Shown here one piece after another: positions 13,482 through 16,428 of a DNA stretch of 64,000 nucleotides. A program made the position numbers and the translations under genes. Positions within the stretch are counted from its first letter, which is position 1, and every line of letters starts with the position of its first letter. This DNA comes from Buchnera aphidicola (Cavariella theobaldi). Its GTDB lineage: Bacteria > Pseudomonadota > Gammaproteobacteria > Enterobacterales > Enterobacteriaceae. The notes beneath the pieces are model-generated. The model worked only from the letters and a program-made list of their open reading frames with translations. It ran no database searches and had not been told where the DNA came from. The DNA lies in NCBI RefSeq assembly GCF_964059165.1, contig NZ_OZ060413.1, positions 62,001 through 126,000 of the forward strand, written 5' to 3'.

Positions 13482-14429
13482 ATGAATCAAAGGAATCATA
13501 CTATAGATCAATTTTCACAGTTTTATCAAAAAGATGAAACAGTAAAGGATATATTTTATATTGAAAAAATTAATATTTTTAAAAATATAAATAGTGTTTT
13601 TATTAATCAAATGATTAAAGAAATTTCTTTTTTAACTAATCAGAATATATATTTAAGTTCTTATAGTATGAAAATAGGGCTTGATAACGATAGTATAAAA
13701 ATGATTGAATCATTAACATATTTTAATTTAATTGAAATATTACCATATAAAAATCAATTATATACTGTTTTTTCTTCAAGCATGTTGTTTATTATAATAG
13801 ATATTTTATTTGGAGGTAATAATAAACATATCAATTGTAAAAATAAAAATGTAGATATTACCTCTACCGAAGTCTTTGTTAATCAAAAATTAATAGAATT
13901 ATTTAAAAAAGCTTACTCCGATGCTTGGAAAAATTTTTTTTCAATTGATATCAATTTAATTGATATAAAAAAAAATAAAGATTTAAATAAATCAAATTTT
14001 TTTTTGCAGGAAAAAATAATTATTCATCGTTTTTTGCTAAAAATGAATCAAATACGCTTTTATTTTTGTGTATTGACTCCGATATCCATATTAAATCTTT
14101 TTAATAAAAATAAATATTTATTTTTTAAAAATAGCATTCCAAAATGCACTTTGTCAGCCAAACCGATATCTATTAAAAATATTAGTTATATAAAATTTAA
14201 TATTATCGTGCAATTAATGGACTTTTCTGTTTCTGAAAAAAATATTTTCACTTTATCTGTAGGCGATGTATTATCTATTGATAATCCTAAAAAAATAATA
14301 GCTTATATTGATAATAAACCAATTTTTTTAGGTTATTATGCGGAATTGCATAAAAAATCTTGTATTATAATAGAAAAATTTATTAATATACAATCTACTA
14401 TAAAAGAGAAAAAATATTATCATGAATAA
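13482..14429 (+). CDS. fliM: Flagellar motor switch protein FliM (no CheY-binding peptide)
   Basis: C-ring protein that in motile bacteria binds CheY-P. The ATG at 13482 follows ACGAGG and is preferred to an earlier in-frame TTG, giving 315 residues. The middle domain (IDILFGG near 108) and the C-terminal SpoA domain ([20 protein letters not shown], about 271-290) are recognisable. The N-terminal EIDALL-type CheY-binding peptide and the GGxGR segment are absent. It overlaps fliN by eight bases. Confidence 0.9.
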
Positions 14430-14820
14430 TATACGAGATACAGTATATCAAAAAGATATAGATGTGAAAGAAGATATAGATGTGAAAGAAGATATAGATG
14501 TGAAAGAAGATATAGATGTGAAAGAAGATATAGATGTGAAAGAAGATATAGATGATATAACGAAAAAAAAAAATATTATATTTAATTCTTCTGTTAATAT
14601 TACCGTAGAATTGGGAAAAACTAAAATAACAATTCAAGATTTTCTTAATCTTTCTCAAGGTAGCGTATTAATTTTAGATAAATTACATGAAGAACCATTA
14701 GATATTTTTATCAATGGTTATTTAATTGCATCAGGTGAGATTGTATTTCTAGAAGAAAAGTATGGCCTTCGTATCACTGGTATTAAAAATGTTTCACAGT
14801 CTATTAATTTTACAATCTGA
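14422..14820 (+). CDS. fliN: Flagellar motor switch protein FliN with an 18-bp repeat expansion
   Basis: C-ring SpoA-domain protein of 132 residues that also docks FliH-FliI. Residues about 12-41 are five perfect copies of DIDVKE encoded by a tandem DNA repeat. The rest ([20 protein letters not shown], then GSVLILDK) is a normal FliN SpoA domain ending YGLRITGI. The repeat replaces the usual acidic N-terminal region, so total length is still near the family's. Starts eight bases inside fliM. Confidence 0.93.
14455..14553 (+). repeat. Tandem repeat, 18 bp x 5 plus a 9-bp partial copy, inside fliN
   Basis: Unit gatatagatgtgaaagaa, five identical copies at 14455-14544, then nine bases of a sixth. 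Each unit encodes DIDVKE in frame. Perfect identity in a fast-drifting AT-rich genome points to recent expansion or ongoing homogenisation by slippage. Confidence 0.97.
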
Positions 14821-14831
14821 GCTTAAATTTT

Positions 14832-16097
14832 ATGAATTATGATAATTATTATTTGCAATTAATACCTAGTATGTTTTCTTTATTACCTCATAATTTATCT
14901 TTATTTCAAATAATAAGTTCATTATCGCAAGTTATATTCTTTATATTAATTTGTGTGTGGTTTTTAAAAAAAATATCTTTTTTAAAAAAATATAAAAAAT
15001 TATCTTTAATTAAAATAATAGATAAAATATCAGTAGGAACTTACGAATCAATTATTATTGTAGATATTCAAGAAAAAAAAATAGTTTTAGGTGTGACTAG
15101 AAAAAATATTTCTTATTTATATACTTTACCATCGATGAATATAAAAGATCAAAATGTTCAAATAAAAGATCAAAATGTTCAAATAAAAGATCAAAATGTT
15201 CAAATAAAAGATCAAAATGTTCAAATAAAAGATCAAAATGTTCAAATAAAAGATCAAAATGTTCAAATAAAAGATCAAAATGTTCAAATAAAAGATCAAA
15301 ATGTTCAAATAAAAGATCAAAATGTTCAAATTTTAAAAAAAATTTTTTATTATTTTAAGAAAATATTAATATATTTTCAGACTACGTTGATTTTATTTTT
15401 GTTTTGTCCTACGGTATATGCTGATGTCTCTAATATTACAAATAATATGACAGATGGAGGAGATTTAAGTTGGTCTATACCAGTACAAACATTAGTTTTT
15501 CTTTCTTTGCTAACTTTTATTCCAGCATTTTTATTGATGATGACAGGTTTTACTAGAATTATTATTGTCTTTGGTTTATTACGTAATGCTTTAGGAACCC
15601 CATACGCACCGCCCAATCAAATCTTGATAGGTTTAGCTTTGTTTTTAACGTTTTTTGTAATGTCTCCTACTATAGATAAAGTATATATTAACGCATATAA
15701 ACCATTTAGTAATAAAACTATAAATATGCAAGAAGCTATTGTACAGGCGTCTATTCCTTTAAAAACGTTTATGTCTAATCAAACTCGCATATCTGATCTA
15801 GAATTATTTTCAAAATTAGCACATTTATCTTCTTATAAAGATCAAAAAGATATACCCATGCGTGTATTATTACCTGCTTTTATTATTAGTGAATTAAAAA
15901 CAGCATTTCAAATTGGATTTACAATATTTATACCATTTTTAATTATTGATTTAGTAGTGGCTAGTGTCTTGATGGCTCTTGGTATGATGATGGTGCCGCC
16001 TGCAACTATTGCTTTACCTTTGAAGCTTATATTATTTGTTTTAGTAGATGGATGGCAATTGTTAGTCAGCTCTTTGATACAGAGTTTTAATGTATAA
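14832..16097 (+). CDS. fliP: Fused FliO-FliP flagellar export gate protein with a nine-unit repeat linker
   Basis: One 421-residue frame. Residues 1-103 match FliO: a membrane segment at about 25-46, then a cytosolic part with [16 protein letters not shown] and KKIVLGVT. Residues 104-166 are nine copies of IKDQNVQ. Residues 167-421 match FliP. They begin with a hydrophobic signal-peptide-like stretch ending VYA before Asp198, followed by the conserved [30 protein letters not shown] and [12 protein letters not shown] segments. FliP forms the core of the export gate with FliQ and FliR; FliO assists its assembly. Signal peptidase cleavage after Ala197 would release a 224-residue FliP, the E. coli mature length. 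No good separate start for FliP is seen. Confidence 0.9.
15141..15329 (+). repeat. Tandem repeat, 21 bp x 9, perfect, linking FliO and FliP
   Basis: Unit ataaaagatcaaaatgttcaa repeated nine times without a mismatch over 189 bases. It is in frame, giving IKDQNVQ each time. The reverse strand is also open over it (repeated FYLNILI), an effect of the repeat rather than a gene. Confidence 0.98.
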
Positions 16098-16158: not shown

Positions 16159-16428
16159 ATGACATCTGAATATGTAATATCAATATTTCATGACGCGATA
16201 AAAGTAACATTTATGTTGGCATCACCATTGTTATTATCTGCATTAGTTAGTGGTTTAATTATCAGTATATTACAAGCTGCTACACAAATTAATGAACAGA
16301 CTTTATCTTTTATTCCTAAAATTATTTCTGTTGTAGGAGTAATGTTAATACTAGGACCTTGGATGTTAGGTGTAATAATGGATTATATGTATCATTTATT
16401 TCGTAATATACCTCTGATTATGCAATAA
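16159..16428 (+). CDS. fliQ: Flagellar export gate protein FliQ
   Basis: Inner-membrane protein of 89 residues with two transmembrane helices (about 16-38 and 53-75). It forms the export gate with FliP and FliR. Family motifs ASPLLLSALVSGLIISILQA and NEQTLSFIPKI are clear. It lies 61 bases after fliP and overlaps fliR by one base (TAATG). Confidence 0.95.
   Translation: MTSEYVISIFHDAIKVTFMLASPLLLSALVSGLIISILQAATQINEQTLSFIPKIISVVGVMLILGPWMLGVIMDYMYHLFRNIPLIMQ

Follow-up and report, generated by a model that had tools for sequence, protein, structure and literature searches.

The window, by which we mean the whole 64,000-nucleotide stretch of Buchnera DNA under study, contains on its plus strand one reading frame in which FliO, nine 21-bp units and FliP with its signal peptide follow each other, with fliN as the upstream neighbor and an ORF at the fliQ position downstream (Table 1). 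That all three parts share a single frame had been proposed in a first-pass annotation of this DNA, and it is confirmed by Pfam, which places both domains above their cut-offs: FliO (PF04347) with 42.3 bits against 22 at residues 43-109, and FliP (PF00813) with 259.3 bits against 26.9 at residues 224-415, covering positions 2-191 of the 191-position profile. In the hydropathy profile, residues 21-53 stand out as the FliO helix and 177-197 as the signal peptide, and the helices of FliP are visible as well. The FliO part consists of a single transmembrane helix and then an antiparallel beta core, for which AlphaFold2 gave H22-56, E60-67, E73-79, E82-88 and E93-99 (pLDDT blocks of 50-80, in a model of low confidence overall); the core agrees with the description in PMC12403147. 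The model of the whole fusion reached a pTM of 0.34, which is too weak for a fold search, so that we used it for the FliO core only.

The FliP part is complete, again as first annotated: the signal-peptide-like segment lies at the conserved place, VYA/D is present in the sequence and the predicted mature part has 224 residues. Asp198 aligns with Gln22 of Salmonella FliP (phmmer, query 182-419 to residues 6-243 of the 6f2d FliP chain), and Salmonella FliP is cleaved, its mature N-terminus being reported at residue 22 (PMC12403130). The predicted signal peptide carries Ala at -1; sequence and Salmonella alignment fit a cleavable one, and the genome encodes signal peptidase I (lepB, C1:256906-257619).

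Table 1. Features of the fliO-fliP locus and further in-frame arrays of the same genome; plain coordinates are window positions.
Feature	Position	Strand	Basis
fliN, upstream neighbor	14422..14820	+	Pfam FliMN_C
Perfect in-frame array, 18 bp x 5.7 (VKEDID), FliN N-terminal tail	14453..14554	+	TRF score 204
Fused fliO-fliP frame	14832..16097	+	421 codons + stop; Pfam FliO and FliP above cut-off
FliO part: transmembrane segment ~21-53, beta-strand core ~60-99	14892..15158	+	hydropathy, Pfam, AlphaFold2
Array in FliO C-terminal tail, nine full 21-bp tandem units of ATAAAAGATCAAAATGTTCAA, perfect (IKDQNVQ x9)	15141..15331	+	TRF; exact unit positions; alignment to free-living FliO tails and 35 relatives of the genus
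Signal peptide of FliP within the frame; signal peptidase I predicted to cut after TVYA (Ala197/Asp198)	15357..15422	+	hydropathy 177-197, Salmonella FliP alignment
Codon TTA (residue 179) at aligned ancestral FliP ATG; start lost	15366..15368	+	53-genome alignment
Mature FliP, 224 residues	15423..16094	+	phmmer to 6f2d FliP, E 2.7e-97; Pfam FliP
ORF at fliQ position, downstream neighbor	16159..16428	+	named from operon position
In-frame array, 15 bp x 9.5 (NDIDK), in 2-oxoacid dehydrogenase E2	L177:5756-5897 (G000:C1:305756-305897)		TRF
Array, 36 bp x 2.4 (PIQEIPPEYPPN), in 127-codon ORF	L191:6145-6230 (G000:C1:566145-566230)	minus	TRF

The array itself is perfect. TRF reported a period of 21, 9.1 copies, 100% matches and a score of 382, compared with a highest score of 101 across 12 dinucleotide-preserving shuffles of the 587-kb contig, and nine exact units occupy 15141-15329 plus two bases, with a unit start every 21 bp, so that the nine identical copies first described stand. 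The array belongs to the C-terminal tail of FliO, and 12 codons separate it from the ancestral FliP start downstream. In the relatives about 35-45 residues separate the FliO beta-domain from the FliP start and end in a basic, helix-like segment (e.g. SLKNFSKISWKK), the counterpart of the FliO C-terminus in free-living relatives (e.g. FQSVMKNLLKRSGRG). In the window the repeat replaces the first part of this tail and leaves 11 residues before the FliP signal peptide. Because the array occupies the first part of the FliO tail in the alignment, it is located inside FliO; a position at the gene junction is ruled out by the alignment with both the relatives and free-living FliO. The 63-residue "repeat linker" of the first-pass annotation is hence correct as to its nine perfect copies, but the supposed linker is FliO's own C-terminal tail.

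No such 21-bp array was found in the other genomes when the genus (36 genomes including that of the window) was searched. FliP is present in all 36, and the frame is open through FliO in 33. The expectation that the fusion is common in Buchnera and the repeat probably not was therefore borne out, the array occurring in the window genome alone. The proposal that the fusion was made through the repeat failed: 32 other genus genomes are fused without any array, fusion without a repeat is the rule in the genus, and the repeat as cause of the fusion is ruled out. The fusion is in fact already known, since a passage of PMC2947984 states it for Buchnera sp. APS from the Shigenobu 2000 genome paper, and the repeats together with the lost separate FliP start are a modest new variant of it.

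The three remaining genus genomes (G010, G023 and G025) have a FliO part as well as a FliP part, in a frame split by indels or stops around A-tracts. G010 has eight A in the tract just before the FliP ATG, versus seven in its near relatives G001 and G008, while G023 and G025 have indels in A-tracts as read from the DNA, and G023 has tandem stops ahead of its FliP part. Of 17 further small genomes in the family, G079, G094, G125 and G219 have a frame that runs open through FliO; most others do not. In the free-living relatives that we read, fliO ends at or slightly past the fliP start, mostly in another frame, a layout in which short insertions or deletions could fuse or separate the genes. One genus displays the fusion at different stages: with the start kept, with the start lost, and with the frame split again near A-tracts.

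We then compared the FliP starts in an alignment of 53 genomes, which is gapped nearby and places the start to within a few codons. An ATG is found there in 29 of the 36 genus genomes, namely 26 of the 33 fused and all three split ones. It is missing in the window and in G013, G015, G016, G022, G028 and G031, the latter six carrying ACG, ATT, ATT, ATA, ATA and GTA at the aligned codon. When the 15 bases before each start were paired with the 16S tail, the mean duplex energy was -3.0 kcal/mol at the kept FliP ATGs and -0.27 kcal/mol at 409 Met codons inside mature FliP (rank test, p = 3e-12, a value inflated by the relatedness of the genomes). The start of FliO itself has no Shine-Dalgarno-like pairing in the genus (mean +0.8), so that pairing identifies starts only imperfectly here. 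Since an ATG with such pairing is kept in most relatives, FliP can probably be started separately there, as judged from the sequence, and most of the fused genomes (26 of 33) need not depend on cleavage of a precursor.

On the FliP tree, loss of the ATG takes four changes by parsimony, and its well-supported branches cannot be reconciled with fewer than two independent losses. All six ATG-less relatives possess another ATG 22 codons upstream with a duplex of -1.8 to -2.8; with G018 and G033, which also have this upstream ATG, the weak pairing spans -1.6 to -2.8. This codon is a possible replacement start in the six, and if it is usable, these genomes are not necessarily tied to the fusion by the loss of the ATG. 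The window is different in this respect. Its nearest in-frame ATG, at 15135 just before the array, gives +2.7 kcal/mol and the in-frame TTG at 15387 gives +0.4 kcal/mol, both without Shine-Dalgarno-like pairing; a further TTG follows at 15399. With these codons as a footnote, the earlier statement that no plausible separate FliP start is visible holds. As the FliP ATG is gone and no good substitute is available, the FliO-FliP precursor is most likely the only source of FliP in the window.

We consider it likely that this gene yields a FliO-FliP precursor which is cut by LepB at Ala197/Asp198 and is the sole source of FliP, and that the array is a young slippage expansion which needs no function of its own. 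A signal peptide such as that of FliP requires a cytoplasmic N-side. Salmonella FliO has an external N-terminus and a cytoplasmic C-terminus (PMC2947984), so that joining the two proteins needs no extra membrane crossing. For the window we infer that one precursor is translated from the frame, that the FliO helix is inserted N-out with the beta-domain and the tail staying cytoplasmic, and that this tail runs directly into the FliP signal peptide without a further crossing. LepB would then probably cut at Ala197/Asp198 and free a normal 224-residue FliP, leaving behind a two-helix remnant of FliO, repeat and signal peptide. Of the self-processing precursor proposed at first, the single frame and the site are retained, and lepB is present; "self" is misleading, because LepB would do the cutting.

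Two other fates of the protein have to be weighed here. FliP might still be made separately from a weak or non-standard start (ATG 15135, TTG 15387 or an ATT/ATA codon), the FliO frame being incidental. Most relatives keep a good separate start, and in-frame ATG and TTG codons are indeed available, but the pairing is absent at 15135 and 15387 and a start at 15387 would give a 12-residue leader without positive charge, so that we regard separate synthesis as unlikely. We give even less credit to a fusion that stays uncut and acts as a tethered pair in the export gate. FliO and FliP do act together in Salmonella (PMC2947984), and the 63-residue insert would make such a tether longer; however, Salmonella FliO is missing from completed basal bodies (PMC5542435), an absence more in line with FliP being released by cleavage than with a lasting tether, Salmonella FliP is cut, and VYA/D and lepB are intact here. 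A basal-body study of the pea aphid symbiont found FliP enriched, and a gel legend there gives it as 43 kDa; the searched passages of that study contain no mention of FliP cleavage. The branch leading to the window FliP is long (0.52 versus a median of 0.046 on the FliP tree), which makes its placement within the genus unsure, and the function of this FliP may be weakened.

Regarding the origin of the repeat, the array would have arisen lately by slippage in a stretch of FliO that is tolerant and probably disordered, and would have been kept because a length of 21 bp stays in frame; a function of its own is not needed. A TRF scan of the whole main contig gave six arrays by our criteria, four of them exact or nearly exact. 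These four lie in fliN (587 bp upstream of the fliO-fliP array), in fliO-fliP, in the 2-oxoacid dehydrogenase E2 gene and in a 127-codon ORF with no Pfam family above cut-off. All are in coding frame, and their periods of 18, 21, 15 and 36 (5.7, 9.1, 9.5 and 2.4 copies) are each divisible by three. The E2 array sits between the lipoyl and catalytic domains, and none of its type was seen in the 29 genus loci of this gene that were scanned. Slippage together with selective removal of frame-breaking lengths would, we infer, explain such arrays without special function. MutS and RecA models did not find mutS or recA in the window genome, whereas mutS is over cut-off in 21 of the 36 genus genomes. 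Loss of mutS as the cause of the arrays is not supported: G015 has mutS and a perfect fliN array, so that the loss is not required. The strongest arrays in this reduced genome without detectable mutS or recA are in frame and in apparently length-tolerant protein parts.

Should the copy number instead be an assembly artefact, which appears quite improbable to us, the 191 bp of identical units, exceeding many short reads, would be the reason; the nine-unit count does rest on the assembly. Both flanks are unique and in frame, though, and the doubt concerns the number of units rather than the existence of the array. Least credible of all is an adaptive or phase-like switch in which array length tunes the FliP supply. 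Identical units do imply recent change and the neighboring fliN also carries an array, but contingency loci are marked by units that are not a multiple of three, and steps of 21 bp never break the frame and hence provide no on/off switch; similar arrays are moreover found in unrelated genes here (E2 and the 127-codon ORF). Returning to the precursor cut by LepB, one may tentatively speculate, at somewhat less than even confidence, that in these symbionts two start sites gave way at least twice to one obligate FliO-FliP precursor for FliP production, supplying a chaperone-like partner and an export-gate subunit at a fixed 1:1 ratio, with a tail free to grow by slippage. The locus makes the supply of FliO and FliP as one cut precursor a testable question.

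In 1.4 Mb of sequence from relatives, scanned with similar TRF criteria, the only genic arrays were those in fliN of G015 (15 bp x 7.2), G033 (15 x 7.1) and G125 (24 x 19.5); a higher array rate in the window genome than in this sample is not supported. Several details of the relatives are worth recording. In the G033 array (L084:603-705) nine consecutive A disrupt the frame, and read-through of fliN may depend on slippage at this A-tract. The G015 unit AATGATATAGATAAC (L108:605-712) differs by one base from the E2 unit AATGATATAGATAAA of the window genome (L177:5756-5897), reflecting either convergence or a shared slippage-prone seed. G019 carries an almost perfect array of 19 bp x 9.5 that lies in no ORF of at least 80 codons (L226:16460-16641).

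We found no publications on coding minisatellites of Buchnera in the open-access literature. Coding tandem repeats are known from other endosymbionts, namely from tolA of Blochmannia, in which array length and unit vary between species (PMC4389277), and from genes of Portiera (PMC7821994). Both resemble the window in carrying in-gene tandem repeats in reduced genomes, but they concern other genes, and the tolA units measure 81-102 bp in the five array-bearing species. Closer at hand, the fliN arrays of G015, G033 and G125 are, like the fliO-fliP array, in-gene arrays, and lie within a disordered-looking tail of the flagellar gene next to it; they differ in gene and in unit (NDIDN, NENVQ and a 24-bp unit) and likely arose independently. 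Compared with Salmonella and E. coli, the FliO and FliP domains are the same and the FliP signal peptide and cleavage position align, but there the two genes are separate, with fliO ending at or just over the fliP start, while the window has one frame. The fusion of Buchnera APS, finally, agrees with the window in genes, order, single frame and type of symbiont, and of the two only the window lacks the FliP ATG and carries a 63-residue repeat in the FliO tail.
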